Source: a bacterium (GTDB lineage: Bacteria; Armatimonadota; UBA5829). Taken from it: DNA of 64,000 nucleotides. The stretch is taken from assembly GCA_021371935.1 (NCBI GenBank), contig JAJFVF010000019.1:1-64000 (forward strand), written 5' to 3'. Under the pieces are notes generated by a model. It ran no database searches, was not told the DNA's origin, and saw only the letters and a program-made list of their open reading frames with translations. Position 1 is the stretch's first letter. Each line of letters opens with the position of its first letter. The position numbers were made by a program, and so were the translations under genes. This document shows, piece by piece, positions 26,671-33,632 of this stretch.

Positions 26671-28944
26671 ATGCTAAAAGGCATCACTAAGGCTGACGGC
26701 GGCAATTCGCCTGAGGACCGATATGGGATTGTAGTTGCTCTTTCCAATTTGTCCAAGACTCTTGATGCTGCCGATGGCAGTGTCGCGTTTCCTGCTGCTG
26801 CGGAGGCAGGCGCGACTCTGCTGCGTGTCTCCAAGACAGTAGTCTTCATAAAAGATCAAAATGGCAAGCTTGTAGCGGTAGGCAATAATGGCCTGAGTAA
26901 TAAACCTGGCTTACTTGCCACTGCAAAGTCTGTTGCCCGTGAATCGCTTGACTCGTCTGCCCCGGTGATCTACCCAAACTCTTACGGTAAGAACCAGAAT
27001 TTGACGCTGAACCTGAAGAAGCTAGGGATATCCGCTGTTTTGAGCGTGCCTATGAGGGTTGGTGAGACAAATTTAGGCGCTTTCGTTGCCCTGTCGGAGG
27101 ACTCGAGGACATTTGCTCCCGGTGACATTGAGCTTGCCCATGTTGTAGCCAGCCAAGCGGCTCTTGCGGCGTGGAAAAACATTGGCCCGAGCGCAGAAAT
27201 GTCTGGTGCGGAGCCGAGCGATTTGATCAGTCTGGCAAATCGCAAGATTCAAGAGCTTTCGCTGGTCAATCAGGTCAGCCATGCAGTAAGTTCAACTCTG
27301 GACCTCGACAAGCTGCTGGATATCGCTCTTGAGCAGTCAATGGCGGCTGTTGGGGCGGATGCCGGTTCATTGATGCTCATAAGTGAGGAAACCGGCAGGC
27401 TGGAGATTGTGGCTTCTCGCGGCATTGCCCGAAAGTGGGTCGAGAATACCAAACAGCCTGTTGGATACAGTATAGCTGGGTGGGTTGCAGAACACGGTGA
27501 GAGTGTTCTGGTCAGTGATGCGCACAGCGATCTTCGTTTCCATATGCCTTTCTTTCGAGATAATATCACCTCGGCTGCGTCCGTTCCGCTCAAAGCCAAG
27601 GGTGTGATAATAGGTGTGCTCAATGTCAACACGACCGACCCGGAGAGAGTTTTTGATGAGCGCGACCTTGAACTGCTCAGCACTGTCGCCAACCAGATGG
27701 CGGTCGCAATAGTAAATGCCCGATTGTATGCCCGTGTCAATCGCCGCACCAAACAGCTCGACAGCCTTTTGCAGATATCGCGCACTGTGACATCCACTCT
27801 CAATCTGGACGAGGTAATGCACAGGGTATCGGAGGTTATCTGCCGTGTCTTCCAGCTTGAGGTATGTTCCATACTGCTCATGGACGAACTCAGCGGTCGT
27901 TTCCGGCTCGGGCATGGCCTTGGATTAAAGAGCAGGCGCAAATTTGTATATTATGATGTTGCTGCTCCATTTGCTCATCGAGTCAAAAAGACCAATATGA
28001 AGTTCACCGTACGTGATGTCAACAAGTCTGATCTTTTGCGTACGGACATCTCACGTGCTGAAAAGTTCAAGACTGCCGTCGCAATCCCTCTCAAGCATCA
28101 TGGAAAAATTGTCGGGGTTGCGGTCGGTTTTTCCCGGGAGACCCGCACATTTGTAAAGTCACAGCAGGACCTCATGCGTCCTGTCGGTGAGCTTGCGGGC
28201 ATTGCGATACGTCATGCCCGCATCTACAGGCAGAAGTATAAGATTGCGGAAATCCTTCAGCAGCGTCTGGTGCCTGCCGAGGCGCCAAAGATAAAAGGGC
28301 TGGATATAGGCCACAAATTCCTGCCAGCTCAGGAAGTAGGCGGTGATTATTATGACTTTATCAAAGTCGGACCGGATATGCTTGGGATCGCACTTGGGGA
28401 TGTAGCCGGCAGCGACGTTGAAGCCGCCGAGTATACAACGATGGGTAAGCACGTGCTTCGCGCATATGCTCACGAATACGCGTATCCGGCAGATGTATTG
28501 GTGAAGACGAACAACATTGTCTGTGAGGATACTCGTTCGGACATGTTCATCAGTCTCTTCTATGGCATAATTGATCTCAAGTCGATGAAGCTGCATTATG
28601 CCAATGCGGGCTGCGAACCGGCTATTCACTACAGCGTCCGTACAGGCGAGTGTAAAGTGTTGCTCTCGGACGGCATTCTGCTTGGGATCAGGAAAGGCAC
28701 GCAGTATGCCCAGCAAGAGATCGATCTTGAGCCGGGCGATGTGCTGATGGTCTATACTGACGGCTTGACCGAAGCCGGCGAAGAGGGTGAGAGATTCGGG
28801 ACCCAGCGCGTAATGGACCTGCTTGCAGACTTTGCCCCCCTGAGCGCCCAGGAGATTGTGAACGGCGTGTATGATGCGCTCCTCGAGTTTGGCCATGGCC
28901 GCATCACAGACGATGTCGCGATGGTCGTCACCAAGATTGTCTGA
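26671..28944 (+). CDS. GAF-GAF-GAF-PP2C (SpoIIE-type) serine phosphatase
   Basis: A 757-residue cytosolic signalling protein. A degenerate GAF domain lies at about 15-175, a canonical one at about 190-350 (LVNQVSHAVSSTLDLDKLLD, then YSIAGWVAEHGE), and a third at about 365-530 (ISRTVTSTLNLDEVMHRV). The C-terminal 200 residues are a SpoIIE/RsbU-type PP2C phosphatase: GGDYYDF, IALGDVAGSDVEAA, YTDGLTEA and DDVAMVV provide the metal-binding aspartates. Such enzymes dephosphorylate STAS anti-anti-sigma factors in partner-switching circuits; a STAS protein with the target serine is at 43446. The ATG at 26671 has a GGGAGA site. Next downstream, 118 bases away, is an ECF sigma factor. Confidence 0.9.
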   Translation: MLKGITKADGGNSPEDRYGIVVALSNLSKTLDAADGSVAFPAAAEAGATLLRVSKTVVFIKDQNGKLVAVGNNGLSNKPGLLATAKSVARESLDSSAPVIYPNSYGKNQNLTLNLKKLGISAVLSVPMRVGETNLGAFVALSEDSRTFAPGDIELAHVVASQAALAAWKNIGPSAEMSGAEPSDLISLANRKIQELSLVNQVSHAVSSTLDLDKLLDIALEQSMAAVGADAGSLMLISEETGRLEIVASRGIARKWVENTKQPVGYSIAGWVAEHGESVLVSDAHSDLRFHMPFFRDNITSAASVPLKAKGVIIGVLNVNTTDPERVFDERDLELLSTVANQMAVAIVNARLYARVNRRTKQLDSLLQISRTVTSTLNLDEVMHRVSEVICRVFQLEVCSILLMDELSGRFRLGHGLGLKSRRKFVYYDVAAPFAHRVKKTNMKFTVRDVNKSDLLRTDISRAEKFKTAVAIPLKHHGKIVGVAVGFSRETRTFVKSQQDLMRPVGELAGIAIRHARIYRQKYKIAEILQQRLVPAEAPKIKGLDIGHKFLPAQEVGGDYYDFIKVGPDMLGIALGDVAGSDVEAAEYTTMGKHVLRAYAHEYAYPADVLVKTNNIVCEDTRSDMFISLFYGIIDLKSMKLHYANAGCEPAIHYSVRTGECKVLLSDGILLGIRKGTQYAQQEIDLEPGDVLMVYTDGLTEAGEEGERFGTQRVMDLLADFAPLSAQEIVNGVYDALLEFGHGRITDDVAMVVTKIV

Positions 28945-29062
28945 AACCCCGAGTCGTGTTATGAAACGGCTAATCCAGTAAAAAACTATCAAAGCCCAAC
29001 GATCCACACCAACCAATCGGTAAAATATTGGGGCTTATCAATTGGAGGACTGGACTTAACGG

Positions 29063-30751
29063 GTGATAGACTGGAAAAATAGTTTGGTACGGGCGCAGCA
29101 GGGCGATCTAGCAGCTTTCGATGCGGTGGTGAAACAATTCCAGGGCATGGCTGTAGGATATGCCTATTCCATTCTCCATGATTTTCAGCTTGCTGAAGAT
29201 GCTGCACAGGAAGCTTTTATACAGGCTTATATGGATCGCGAAATGCTGCGTGAACCGCAGGCTTTTCCGGCTTGGCTGCGAAAGCTGGTGTTCAAGCAAT
29301 GTGACCGCATCACGCGCAAGAAAAGGGTTTCCACTACACCGCTTGATGATAACGTCGATCTTCATATAGCAAGCCCTACACTTCTTGAGACTGTTGAGCG
29401 GCAAGAGACTCAGAAAGTGGTGCTGTCCGCTGTTGATACTCTCCCTGAGGATCAGCGAATAGCCACTATGCTCTACTATATCGATGGGTATTCACTTTCC
29501 GAGGTAGGCGAATTCCTCGATGTTCCTGCTCATACCATCAAAAGCCGCCTTCACTGTGCAAGAGCCAAACTGCGCAATAAGATGATCGGCCTGGTAGAAG
29601 AAACACTGAAACAAAATGCTCCGGGTGAAAACTTCCATAACAGGATACGTAAGATTCTGGAAGGCATTGCGCAGTTTCCCTGGGAGAGCACATGGTTTTG
29701 TTTTGAGGGTTCACTCTATGGCTGTCTAAAGTACATCGACAAGGAGATCAATCTGGCATACTTGATGGGAGTATCCGGTGGAGCATTCAAGTTCTTTTGG
29801 CATCCTGATAGTTCACCGGCGATGTGCGATCTTTCATTGTTGGGCGAGGAACCGATCAAGCGAATCTGCAAGGCTCTGGGATACAGTTACACTTATGATG
29901 AGGACAGATATACAATTTGCCATAAGAATGGGGATCTCGGCGGCCTGCAAAAAGACCCCAGCCACACAGAGGAGTACTACACACAGAGAATAGTAAAAAG
30001 TATTGATGCCGGTCGACCGGTCCTGGCGAGGGGGATATTGCCTGTTCCTATTTTCGATGACAAGGTGTTTTTAGAATACTGTGTTATAACCGGATATAAC
30101 GAAGGCGGTAAGGTCCTTTATGGTGCAAGTTATTTCCAGGCAATGTTACAACAAAGCGGCTACTTCCGTGTGGAAGACTGGTATGACAAGTGTTTTGGTG
30201 TCATAACTCTTGGACAAAGGTGCAAGCCACAGACCCCGCTGGAAATCGTCACTGACGCAGTAGCCTGGGCTATCGATCTTGCCCGCACACCAAAACGCAA
30301 TACAACCATGCCGACCAGAGTCGGAACGCATACATGGCATTATTCCGGTCTGGCAGCCTATGACGTTCTGGCCAACGAACTGCTTAATGACAAGAGATTT
30401 CCCAATGACGATAAGGTTTTGTCCGCAGCAATTGAGTTGTTCATGTTCGATGGCATCTTCCTCCTGCTGGAAGAAAGGCAGAATGCCGCTGCCTTTCTGA
30501 GTCAGATGGCTTCAGGCGGACTGCCCGGAACAGGGCTGATACAGCATGCGGCGGATCTATACTCAGAAGAGGCAGCTATCTTGCGCAGTTCCACTGAGTA
30601 TATTTCCTTCCAACCTCATACTCAGTTGGATGTGATTGCAGACAGGTCTGTGCGTCGGGAACTGTGTAATATTGTCCGGGAGGCGAAGATCAAGGAGGAA
30701 TGCGCGATATCACAGCTTGAACTAGTTTATAAAGTGCTGACGAACTGCTAA
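29063..30751 (+). CDS. ECF sigma factor fused to a C39/BtrH-like domain
   Basis: A 562-residue fusion. Residues 1-75 are sigma region 2 (AAFDAVVKQF, LAEDAAQEAFIQAYMD, AFPAWLRKLVFKQCDR) and about 115-170 region 4 (TLPEDQRIATMLYYIDGYSL, then VPAHTIKSRLHCARAKLR). From about 195 to the end is a domain homologous to the two following genes, resembling the BtrH N-terminal/peptidase C39-like fold: YLMGVSGGAFK, ALGYSYTY, IDAGRPVLARG, YCVITGYNEGGKVLYG. The position of the C39 catalytic cysteine is Ser here, so protease activity is unlikely. The start is GTG, with GGAGG about 14 bases upstream. No anti-sigma gene is adjacent; the fused domain may replace it. Confidence 0.85.
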   Translation: MIDWKNSLVRAQQGDLAAFDAVVKQFQGMAVGYAYSILHDFQLAEDAAQEAFIQAYMDREMLREPQAFPAWLRKLVFKQCDRITRKKRVSTTPLDDNVDLHIASPTLLETVERQETQKVVLSAVDTLPEDQRIATMLYYIDGYSLSEVGEFLDVPAHTIKSRLHCARAKLRNKMIGLVEETLKQNAPGENFHNRIRKILEGIAQFPWESTWFCFEGSLYGCLKYIDKEINLAYLMGVSGGAFKFFWHPDSSPAMCDLSLLGEEPIKRICKALGYSYTYDEDRYTICHKNGDLGGLQKDPSHTEEYYTQRIVKSIDAGRPVLARGILPVPIFDDKVFLEYCVITGYNEGGKVLYGASYFQAMLQQSGYFRVEDWYDKCFGVITLGQRCKPQTPLEIVTDAVAWAIDLARTPKRNTTMPTRVGTHTWHYSGLAAYDVLANELLNDKRFPNDDKVLSAAIELFMFDGIFLLLEERQNAAAFLSQMASGGLPGTGLIQHAADLYSEEAAILRSSTEYISFQPHTQLDVIADRSVRRELCNIVREAKIKEECAISQLELVYKVLTNC

Positions 30752-30774
30752 TGGATTTTTAGGGAGAAAATGGG

Positions 30775-31851
30775 ATGAAAACAATTTTGCTCGTGGCAAG
30801 TGTAATGATTTTTGGATTGAGCCTGTCATCTTATGGAGCAGAGGAGAAACCGGTGCATCAGAAAAAGAACGTAATACTCGGGTTGAGTAAAGTTGACTGG
30901 AGTGATGTCACAAAACAAAATGAATTTATAAGCTGTGTGATATCGGCCATGGAGCACCTCGGCAAAAAATACACTTATGACGATTTGGCATGTGTATCGG
31001 GCTGCGCGTTCCGCGCCTGCTGCACTTCAAAGCAGAACATAAATCCGAGTTCATATCATGTGACCAGCGATATTGCGATAATACCGCACACTTTCAAGAT
31101 GCTGGGGTACAGTTTCACATTGCACAAGAGAAGTGATTATGAGACGGATAAAAAGCTCATTATGGACAGCATAGATAAAGGCATCCCGGTACTAACCTTT
31201 CACGGCGTAGCTAATTGGTCGGAATGCTGCATAATCTCCGGCTATGATGATGATGGCGCTGTATTGCTTGGTTATAGCTCTTTTTGCGACTATACCAACG
31301 GGGCGCGCGACAGCGAATACTTCCGCTTTTGCGATTGGCATGATGGCTGGTTTGAACAGGGAAACGGCAAGATACTGATCATTGGCGAACCAACGAAGCT
31401 GCCTTGTAAGGAAGAGATCACTAAGGAATCGCTGAAAATAGCGGTGAAGCTGATCAGAGGAACTGCCTCAGAAAGCAAGGATTGGGTGACTGGATATGCA
31501 GGTCATACTAGGTATGCAGAGTTGCTATGCAAAGACACTGATGATTGGGATATGCACTACACTGCGATCGCAACCAATCTCGGTACCCTATATCGAGACA
31601 AGCTCTACGTGGCGCCATTCCTGCGTGAGGCCAAGGCGGTTCTAAAGGACAAGGATGACACGCTGGAGCAGTGCGCGAAACTCTATGACCAGATATCGGA
31701 TCTGGTGCGTGAGATGCTTAAGCTCATTCCGGATGATCTATCTCTGGGCAAAGGTGTCCTGGACAAAGAGCTGCGCAAGCAGTATGCGCAGCGCGTATAC
31801 AAGATAAGAGATTTGGAAAAGCAGGCTGCAGATTTGCTTGAGAAGATATAG
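30775..31851 (+). CDS. Exported C39/BtrH-like domain protein, paralog of the sigma-fused domain
   Basis: A 358-residue protein with a clear signal peptide (MKTILLVASVMIFGLSLSSYG) and the domain of the preceding gene. Landmarks: GLSKVDWSDVTKQNEFISCV, DDLACVSGCAFR, HTFKMLGYSF, RSDYETDKKLIMDSIDKGIP, CCIISGYDDDGAVLLGYSSF and YFRFCDWHDGWF. Here the catalytic-like position is Cys (ISCVISAM). The C-terminal third is helical and charged, possibly a coiled coil. It starts 23 bases after the sigma-fusion stop behind AGGGAG. Export makes it a candidate periplasmic partner or ligand binder for the system. No enzymatic activity can be asserted. Confidence 0.8.
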   Translation: MKTILLVASVMIFGLSLSSYGAEEKPVHQKKNVILGLSKVDWSDVTKQNEFISCVISAMEHLGKKYTYDDLACVSGCAFRACCTSKQNINPSSYHVTSDIAIIPHTFKMLGYSFTLHKRSDYETDKKLIMDSIDKGIPVLTFHGVANWSECCIISGYDDDGAVLLGYSSFCDYTNGARDSEYFRFCDWHDGWFEQGNGKILIIGEPTKLPCKEEITKESLKIAVKLIRGTASESKDWVTGYAGHTRYAELLCKDTDDWDMHYTAIATNLGTLYRDKLYVAPFLREAKAVLKDKDDTLEQCAKLYDQISDLVREMLKLIPDDLSLGKGVLDKELRKQYAQRVYKIRDLEKQAADLLEKI

Positions 31852-31949
31852 GAATCGTGGCATGAACACTTTCGCGACTGCTCCGCGGTGTTGTTGTGTT
31901 CGCCACGAAGGGAACGAAAATGCTCCGCATTTTCGAAGGAGGATTCACT

Positions 31950-32915
31950 ATGAAGAGGAACGTAATATCGGGCCTGCGCAAAGTCGACTGGAGTGACGTC
32001 ACAAGACAGAGTGAGTATATAAACAGCGTCATCTCTGCGCTGTGCGGCCTTGGCGAGAGCCTGGATTATGATTATGTCTGTGCTGTTTCGGGAAGTGCAT
32101 TCCGCACCTCGTTTTCAGCAGAGGGATGGAACCATGGCAATTATCATGTTATCAATACGCCGGTTATCCTTGAGCATACTTTCAAAATGCTGGGGTACAA
32201 CGTTTCACAGCACACCCGGAGTGATTATGAGACCGACAGCAGGCTTATAATGGACAGCATAGACAAGGGTGTTCCAGTCATAACCGTTGAGGGTGTAGTC
32301 TGTTGTGCTGATGCATGCGTGATATCCGGCTACGACGATGACGGCCGAGTGCTGCTGGGCTGGAACCCGTTTATGTATATTAAGGACGATCATCCTGAAG
32401 CGCCGGATGAGACAGGTTATTTCAGAAAGACGGATTGGCACAACGGTTTCTTCGCGGACGGTAAAGGGAAAATACTCATCATTGAAGGCAAGTGTGAGAA
32501 GCCTGACAAACAAACCGTTTTATCGGAGACTCTGAAGCTGATCTCACGGCTTATTCGGGAAGAGAGCCTGGTGCCGGGTCAACATAACGGTCTCGCCGCA
32601 CATAAGGCTTTTGCCGATGCGCTGCTTACGTATACATGGGATGACAACGACTTGGTGTATCTTAATGTGATGTGCAACTACAAACAGTATCTCGACCGGC
32701 AGTATGCAGTCAAGTTCTTCCGCGACAACGACAGAGACGATCTGGCAGATAGCTATGAAGAGATAGCAGCGCTTTGCGCAAAGCTCGGGCAGATTATCCC
32801 GCAGGACTTCACTGCGGGTGATATGTTCAGCGACAAGGAGAATCTGAGACCATACTGCGACGTTCTGCTGCAGATACGCGATCTTGAAGAGGGAGTCCTA
32901 CCTCTATTTGGCTAA
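31950..32915 (+). CDS. Cytosolic C39/BtrH-like domain protein, second paralog
   Basis: A 321-residue paralog of the previous protein without a signal peptide: VISGLRKVDWSDVTRQSEYI, VCAVSGSAFR, HTFKMLGYNV, RSDYETDSRLIMDSIDKGVP, ACVISGYDDDGRVLLGWNPF, GYFRKTDWHNGFF. The C39-type cysteine is replaced by Ser (INSVISAL). The middle segment GLAAHKAFADALL also occurs in the sigma fusion (GLAAYDVLANELL) but is altered in the exported protein. The ATG at 31950 follows AAGGAGG by 8 bases. About half the residues of the core match the exported paralog, implying a local duplication that later diverged in location. Confidence 0.8.
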   Translation: MKRNVISGLRKVDWSDVTRQSEYINSVISALCGLGESLDYDYVCAVSGSAFRTSFSAEGWNHGNYHVINTPVILEHTFKMLGYNVSQHTRSDYETDSRLIMDSIDKGVPVITVEGVVCCADACVISGYDDDGRVLLGWNPFMYIKDDHPEAPDETGYFRKTDWHNGFFADGKGKILIIEGKCEKPDKQTVLSETLKLISRLIREESLVPGQHNGLAAHKAFADALLTYTWDDNDLVYLNVMCNYKQYLDRQYAVKFFRDNDRDDLADSYEEIAALCAKLGQIIPQDFTAGDMFSDKENLRPYCDVLLQIRDLEEGVLPLFG

Positions 32916-33026
32916 CCTGTTGTCATTCATCCTGTATATTTATGCGATGGTTTCACTACGATAGCAGGATCAGCAGGAAATACGTAGAATTATGGTTTGA
33001 CAAGTAAGTGTATTACGGAGGACATT

Positions 33027-33632
33027 ATGGGGATTCTTCAATCTATTTTCGGCCCATCAAAGGATGAGATATGGAGTCAACTTGCAAATGATATGGGAGG
33101 TCTATACAAGAAAGGCGGATTCTTTGGTACCGATGTTCTTCGGTATCGCTCCGGTGAATGGGAAGTCACGCTCGATACATATACAACTGGTAAGAACAAT
33201 ACAGTATACACACGAATGAGAGCACCTTTCGTAAACAAGGACGGCCTCTACTTTAGGATTTACCGACAAGGTTTTTTTGCCACAATCGGAAAGGCTTTTG
33301 GTATGCAAGATATCGAGATCGGTGACCCGTATTTCGATGATGAGTTTATTATAAAAGGAAACAGTGAACAGAAAATTCAGATGCTTCTTGCAGACCCGGA
33401 ACTCAAGGATAGAATCCGCAGGCAGCCCGACATATGTCTTCAAGTAAAGAATGACGAAGGCTGGTTTGGAGCTAAGTTTCCCAGCGGTGTAGATGAATTG
33501 TATTTTCAGTGTTATGGAGTTCTTAAGGACAAGGAACTTCTTAAGAATTTGTTTGAGATGTTTTGCATAACACTTCAGAGGCTTGTGCAGATCGATTCCG
33601 CATATGAGAATGATCCCAATGTCAGGCTATAA
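33027..33632 (+). CDS. Hypothetical soluble protein
   Basis: A 201-residue protein starting at ATG 33027 behind ACGGAGGACATT. It has no signal peptide. A beta-rich core contains YRSGEWEVTLDTYTTG, then the segment GDPYFDDEFIIKGNSEQKI and LLADPELKDRI, a pattern (small-molecule or membrane-associated DUF3137-like) met in many uncharacterised proteins. It lies 111 bases after the BtrH-like paralogs in the same direction, so it may belong to that block. Function unknown. Confidence 0.6.
   Translation: MGILQSIFGPSKDEIWSQLANDMGGLYKKGGFFGTDVLRYRSGEWEVTLDTYTTGKNNTVYTRMRAPFVNKDGLYFRIYRQGFFATIGKAFGMQDIEIGDPYFDDEFIIKGNSEQKIQMLLADPELKDRIRRQPDICLQVKNDEGWFGAKFPSGVDELYFQCYGVLKDKELLKNLFEMFCITLQRLVQIDSAYENDPNVRL

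Follow-up and report, generated by a model that had tools for sequence, protein, structure and literature searches.

In a stretch of 64,000 nucleotides from an Armatimonadota genome of the UBA5829 lineage (positions 1 to 64,000 of contig JAJFVF010000019.1, assembly GCA_021371935.1; hereafter the window), the gene for a protein named P0001 codes for an extracytoplasmic function (ECF) sigma factor joined to a large C-terminal domain, and two further copies of this domain, P0002 and P0003, are encoded directly downstream. We favor, at a probability of roughly 0.6, the view of P0001 as a one-component ECF sigma factor equipped with a pseudo-acyltransferase ligand sensor. The fusion, its recurrence in other genomes, the loss of a catalytic His residue and the occurrence of the domain in further kinds of regulators are all read from sequence. 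Elsewhere the domain is fused to regulators of other types, so it is likely to be a plug-in module, little known so far, that senses a small molecule.

Sigma factor and additional domain in one open reading frame

P0001 matches Sigma70_r2 (residues 23-87) and Sigma70_r4_2 (residues 120-170), both above the Pfam cut-offs, and passes the cut-off of the NCBIfam model TIGR02937 (sigma70-ECF). The Pfam scan gave no match to Sigma70_r3 or r1, i.e., no region 3 or region 1.1 domain was found, and none to TPR or, at E 1, to SnoaL. Judged from these matches, P0001 contains an entire ECF sigma factor, with regions 2 and 4, followed by a domain of ~370 residues within one open reading frame. Residues 186-562 align to P0002 (E 3e-11) and P0003 (E 3e-12). 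The first-pass annotation of this DNA had proposed both that the gene at 29063 joins sigma regions 2 and 4 to a C-terminal domain and that the next two genes are paralogs of that domain, and the matches above the cut-offs and the alignments bear it out on both counts. P0002 and P0003 are 43% identical to each other; the fused domain of P0001 is a distant paralog of both, with ~23-27% identity, and its closest relatives are sigma-fused domains in other genomes, at 38% identity. A family scan of the neighboring proteins, P0002, P0003, P0004, and the PP2C-type phosphatase encoded upstream, gave no match to anti-sigma families.

Distribution of the domain and of its fusions

Among 291 Armatimonadota genomes, a profile made from three sequences found the domain in 59, and a profile made from 34 sequences found it in 89, often in several copies. 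Eleven firm sigma fusions, a count that includes one in G197 cut by a contig end, are present in nine of these genomes (G000, G191, G192, G195, G196, G197, G198, G223, and G236). The genome of the window, G000, has two of them, P0001 and a second sigma-pseudo-acyltransferase fusion, of type B, on contig C13 (L013:1194-2756, - strand); G196 also has two, and each of the others has one. A type-B domain on contig C129 of G198 groups in the tree with sigma-fused type-B domains; its surroundings turned up no sigma part, which leaves this candidate twelfth fusion unconfirmed. At ~2.9 kb from the second fusion of the window genome, and divergent from it, a gene codes for an LKRQAKSLL-type N-terminus followed by the same domain (C13, L013:5635-6966, + strand). 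In several Armatimonadota genomes, lipoprotein-like proteins carry a segment that looks TPR-like on inspection N-terminal to the domain (L077-L081).

A second sample comprised 299 Bacillota-group genomes, from the phylum around the Clostridiales bacterium UBA4959 record, and the domain is present in 24 of them. This sample yielded one ECF sigma fusion (L109/L113). In other proteins of the group the domain is preceded by an AraC-type helix-turn-helix (HTH) region (L094, L095, L097, L104, L105, and L046/L068; three of these partners were confirmed with Pfam and the remainder by inspection, and the single one scanned with NCBIfam is Rob/RamA/SoxS-like) or by a WYL regulator (L106/L118). In one Armatimonadota protein (L047) a Cass2/GyrI-like ligand domain stands C-terminal to the family domain, and in some others of that phylum the domain is repeated two or three times. 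The viral scan with the sigma part returned one weak locus. Fusion to at least three types of regulators is, as far as sequences can tell, the pattern of a sensory module. The earlier proposal that the fused domain is sensory gains from this range of partners, i.e., ECF sigma factor, AraC-type HTH, WYL regulator, and an adjoining Cass2/GyrI-like domain, as well as from the loss of the His residue described below.

The sigma fusions do not form a single clade, as expected for a plug-in module. In a 95-row tree of the domain the sigma-fused rows are scattered over several parts. A 90-row tree requires five label changes, and its well-supported branches impose at least four of them; the approximately unbiased (AU) test rejected a single clade of sigma fusions (p 1.6e-7, an indicative value because the sigma-fusion labels were chosen after the first tree had been seen). 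The domain of P0001 groups with those of G198 and G196 fusions, apart from P0002 and P0003. Within the window genome, two proteins come closest to P0001 in their sigma parts, the second fusion and a sigma-PheS-like fusion described below, at 48-49% identity; the next one is at 39%. In turn, the PheS-like fusion is ~60% identical in its sigma part to two type-B fusions, with unrelated C-terminal domains.

Fold and catalytic residues of the domain

No member of the family reaches any Pfam cut-off, and the weak matches are to BtrH_N, Peptidase_C39_2, and DUF4872. P0003 scores 13.7 bits against BtrH_N (PF14399), whose cut-off is 29.7, and the best of 34 members gave E-values of 0.0018 for BtrH_N and 0.024 for DUF4872 (PF16169), both below the cut-offs. 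As a sequence search of solved structures retrieved helical by-catch only, the fold assignment rests on structure comparison. The modeled protein was P0003, and the fold of the fused domain of P0001 is assigned through homology. With the AlphaFold2 model of P0003 (eight input sequences, mean pLDDT, i.e., predicted local distance difference test score, of 80), Foldseek ranked AziU3/U2 and CtaG at the top, with E-values from 2e-7 to 2e-3. Similarly, VIA-align placed CtaG, AziU3, and CcbD at Z-scores of 15-16 across 267-286 residues; lower ranks were taken by phytochelatin synthase (Z 14, N-terminal part only) and by peptidase-type entries (Z ~12). The model thereby assigns to the whole 320-residue unit a BtrH/CcbD/CtaG-type fold, made of a papain-like N-terminal part and a helical C-terminal part. 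The AziU2/U3 complex acts in azinomycin biosynthesis, and the fold class also includes acyl-transfer enzymes. The initial label of the domain as C39/BtrH-like is therefore upheld by the predicted fold of P0003 and not by curated family membership. PF14399 matches on contigs C11 and C13 of the window genome were set aside: they are C39-type, exported-looking proteins with CGPxSL and GHY motifs, and not close relatives. Such C39-like proteins are encoded in tandem arrays, of four copies on C11 (L007:5307-9985) and three on C13 (L008:9818-14643).

The columns that correspond to the catalytic Cys, His, and Asp were read off 57 aligned members. At the nucleophile column, 18 of them have Cys, 14 have Asn, and the others various residues; most type-B sigma fusions are among those that keep Cys. 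His is found in none of the 57 at the His column, which is Asp or Glu in 45, and a profile alignment confirmed the column in that the C39-type proteins of the window genome place their His there. The Asp column is Ser or Asn in most members. At the three positions P0001 has F212 (with C213 adjacent), E338, and S356, respectively. P0002 has N49 at the nucleophile position and Glu at the His position, and P0003 has S39 and Asp, with S39 standing just before helix 40-50 in the model. The Ser, Cys, and Ser residues first reported as the catalytic ones of the three proteins lie about five residues too far along the sequences and were replaced by F212, N49, and S39. The accompanying argument that proteolysis is unlikely nevertheless holds, as the catalytic His is missing from the whole family. 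An active C39 peptidase is ruled out on these residues, and the absence of the defining residues places the domain outside the BtrH and C39 enzyme families.

Proposed mechanism and putative promoters

In the favored reading, a degenerate member of the BtrH/CcbD/CtaG/AziU3 fold would have turned into a ligand-binding domain. Its ligand would occupy the former active-site cleft, and binding would change how the domain sits against, or close to, the sigma regions, which might switch the binding of RNA polymerase or of the promoter on or off. What we infer here, and do not read from sequence, is that a ligand binds, what it is, which way the switch works, and which regulon it controls. The replacement of the catalytic His by an acidic residue suggests that the ligand is perhaps an amine or a cationic compound. 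A mechanism of this kind has an analog in ECF41, whose SnoaL extension is thought to change conformation when a small molecule binds, without a separate anti-sigma factor (PMC8999054).

Upstream of the six aligned type-B fusion genes, a [GT]CAAC element and a TC element at a fixed spacing were found in all six, 65-81 bp before the start, and none of 300 dinucleotide shuffles reached this motif count, a result that is indicative in that the motif was seen by eye before it was tested and the loci are partly related. This ECF-like promoter would be consistent with autoregulation of the type-B genes. When it was searched for in the window genome, two matches beyond the gene itself were obtained, one of them inside a coding sequence, versus one for the reversed control.

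Several observations weigh against P0001 as a ligand-switched sigma factor. The type-B promoter motif is absent upstream of its gene. In type-A fused domains a Cys directly follows the nucleophile column (C213 in P0001), and the nucleophile assignment there is accordingly uncertain by one residue; the loss of His is independent of that uncertainty. The loss of the Cys-His pair is compatible with other chemistry in the fold. Finally, the full-length P0001 model is poor over the sigma part (pLDDT mostly <=50), and for that reason no interface between the sigma part and the domain is claimed.

The neighborhood of P0001

All five genes of the region are on the + strand (Table 1), and P0002 starts 23 bp past the end of P0001. 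The pairing of an exported and a cytosolic copy proposed at first agrees with the signal-peptide-like start of P0002, a segment also present in its G241 and G244 orthologs. For P0003, the start had to be moved: its orthologs begin with MKRNV, which points to the ATG at 31950 rather than 31896. The PP2C phosphatase with three GAF domains was recognized as first described. It is probably a mere neighbor, and unlikely to be a dedicated partner of the sigma gene, because the syntenic locus of G244, which has no sigma gene, has the phosphatase too.

Table 1. Features of the P0001 region of the window
Feature	Position	Strand	Basis
PP2C/SpoIIE-type phosphatase, three GAF matches	26671..28944	+	Pfam SpoIIE E 8e-47; GAF_2 over three stretches
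P0001 fusion gene, whole	29063-30751	+	Open reading frame list
ECF sigma part of P0001, residues 1-180	29063..29602	+	Pfam Sigma70_r2, Sigma70_r4_2; NCBIfam TIGR02937
P0001 fused pseudo-acyltransferase domain (assigned by homology), residues ~190-556	29630..30730	+	Alignment to P0002/P0003, family profile, P0003-model fold search
P0002, exported solo copy (predicted)	30775..31851	+	Signal-peptide-like N-terminus; P0001 homology
P0003, cytosolic solo copy (predicted), likely start ATG 31950	31950..32915	+	Ortholog starts; P0001/P0002 homology
P0004, hypothetical protein	32997..33632	+	Sub-threshold DUF3137 match only

At the G244 locus the phosphatase gene is accompanied by a gene for a small cysteine-rich protein (presumably DUF3795-like), the P0002 and P0003 orthologs, and a downstream oxidoreductase gene. 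In G241 the small cysteine-rich gene and the solo pair are found at another place, again with no sigma gene beside them; in both genomes the small gene comes before the pair. P0003 is 90% identical to its G244 ortholog, and P0002 is 62% identical to that of G244 but 88% identical to that of G241, which suggests that the stretch from the sigma gene to P0002 may have been exchanged locally relative to G244. A segment of ~750 bp that carries P0004 (32918-33672 of the window) is missing at the syntenic place in G244.

Elsewhere, the sigma fusions of G195 and G196 each overlap by 8 bp an exported solo gene with a twin-arginine-like start. In the Bacillota-group genome G358, the fusion lies 37 bp downstream of a protein with the motifs CYANS, GCDHY, and LHDP (bearing C, H, and D), whose relation to the family is drawn from a weak profile score and these three motifs. 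Most other sigma-fusion loci have no adjoining family member. The link of sigma fusions with solo copies is thus recurrent but not constant, and to the question raised at the outset, whether other fusions always neighbor solo domains, the answer is that they do so at some loci. P0002 and P0003 are probably separate binding proteins of the family with a conserved association of their own, and a functional link to the P0001 sigma factor is possible. The roles suggested for them at the outset, with the exported copy as co-receptor and the cytosolic one as competitor, are weakened by the sister genomes that keep the pair away from a sigma gene and retain some credit from the adjacency in G195, G196, and G358. 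G358 also encodes a WYL regulator followed by two tandem solo copies (L121:4902-7958, - strand).

Alternative explanations

That P0001 is an assembly or frameshift artefact uniting two genes near residue 190, a risk raised in the first-pass annotation, has a negligible chance of being true and was ruled out because other genomes show the same architecture, intact and in continuous frames, on contigs of their own, and the window genome shows it once more. The trio might, on the other hand, be a chance neighborhood in which an inserted sigma fusion happens to lie next to copies of a common paralog family and the genes share no function. This is a minority prospect that deserves some weight: the family occurs in close to a third of the Armatimonadota genomes, often in multiple copies, and the sigma-P0002 stretch looks locally replaced relative to G244. 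Against it, members or relatives adjoin sigma fusions at four loci (the window, G195, G196, and G358), above expectation among several thousand genes, and the G195 and G196 pairs overlap. As this explanation concerns the trio and not the fusion, it can hold together with the favored reading.

The fused domain could also be a protein-interaction module, so that sigma activity would depend on a docked protein (the cytosolic solo copy or some other enzyme) and not on a small molecule; ECF42, whose TPR extension is proposed to work by protein interaction (PMC8999054), provides the model. The arrangement of the solos directly downstream of P0001, the overlapping pairs of G195 and G196, the triad-motif protein just upstream of the G358 fusion, and the WYL gene of G358 with its two solos are what such a module would predict. 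We consider it unlikely, given that at most other sigma fusions no family member lies next door, that the solo pair persists in sister genomes where no sigma gene accompanies it, that an exported copy should not meet a cytosolic sigma factor, and that the AraC and WYL fusions favor effector binding. Still less probable is a domain that remains catalytic without the Cys-His-Asp triad, which would make the sigma factor a bifunctional enzyme-regulator sensing its own substrate. The fold class does cover the AziU2/U3 complex as well as acyl-transfer enzymes, and about one third of the aligned members, including most type-B sigma fusions, have Cys in the nucleophile column; yet none has the His, P0001 itself has Phe at the nucleophile column and Ser at the Asp position, and no carrier-protein or biosynthetic genes were recognized by eye beside the trio.

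Other long ECF sigma factors of the window genome

The genome codes for further ECF sigma factors with long C-terminal parts. One (C12, L139:1502-2764, - strand) carries a PheS-like domain (phenylalanyl-tRNA synthetase alpha core; Pfam tRNA-synt_2d, E 4e-21) and has strong matches with open frames of equal length in G241, G244, and G236. By eye, its motif-2 HQ.E and a motif-3-like segment look retained, and it might sense an aromatic amino acid. Another (C9, L138:1478-2857, + strand) has, after the sigma part, a segment resembling DnaN, the beta clamp, with a TIGR00663 match (E 3e-7) that stays far under the curated cut-off. Radical-SAM-like, BNR-like, HEAT-repeat, transmembrane-looking, and winged-helix-like C-terminal parts are found among five more (C12, L140:2434-4053, +; C6, L141:1124-2875, -; C6, L136:985-3144, -; C10, L135:792-2573, -; C22, L137:1619-3289, +). 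We tentatively propose, at somewhat less than even odds, that ECF sigma factors of the Armatimonadota have interchangeable C-terminal domains recruited from metabolic enzymes and read metabolite levels without an anti-sigma factor. Candidate domains for such a modular system, put forward with the same reserve, are the BtrH-like and PheS-like ones, and perhaps radical-SAM-like, DnaN-like, and sialidase-like ones.

Comparison with known systems

The family shares a whole-length fold, in the P0003 model, with BtrH (PF14399 and PF16169), CcbD, CtaG, and AziU3, from which it differs in that none of the 57 members has the His, the nucleophile and Asp are mostly replaced, and the Pfam scores are below the cut-offs. 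Rob-type AraC regulators carry a GyrI-like effector domain. In Bacillota-group genomes the family domain takes the position that the GyrI-like domain has in those regulators, C-terminal to a Rob/RamA/SoxS-like HTH, although the two domains are unrelated. A putative sensor domain under every tested Pfam cut-off is thus present in 89 of 291 Armatimonadota and 24 of 299 Bacillota-group genomes, with at least three classes of regulators, and ECF sigma factors would gain a built-in input from an enzyme fold known in antibiotic biosynthesis. Because each of these regulators seems complete in itself, a search for its ligand and promoter would need one protein only, and the sister fusions of the same genome, which carry PheS-like or other enzyme-like domains, allow parallel tests.

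No paper joining BtrH with an ECF sigma factor was found in the literature searched; the main ECF reclassification was outside that search and may hold an earlier description. ECF sigma factors with N- or C-terminal regulatory extensions form at least 26 groups, whose extensions include SnoaL, TPR, WD40, Cys-rich, and anti-sigma-like types, and a BtrH-type extension is not named among them in the text of that review read here (PMC8999054). ECF42 has, like P0001, a long C-terminal regulatory extension and no anti-sigma factor, whereas P0001 has no TPR match, and the groups with a SnoaL-like extension (ECF41, ECF56, ECF205, ECF294, and ECF295) are, like P0001, cytosolic ECF sigma factors with a fused C-terminal domain (PMC8999054). 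The ECF41-type extension is there a SnoaL domain of 120-150 residues, whereas that of P0001 has ~370 residues and a predicted BtrH/CcbD/CtaG-type fold (PMC8999054). P0001 extends the known class of ECF sigma factors with extensions by a further type of extension.

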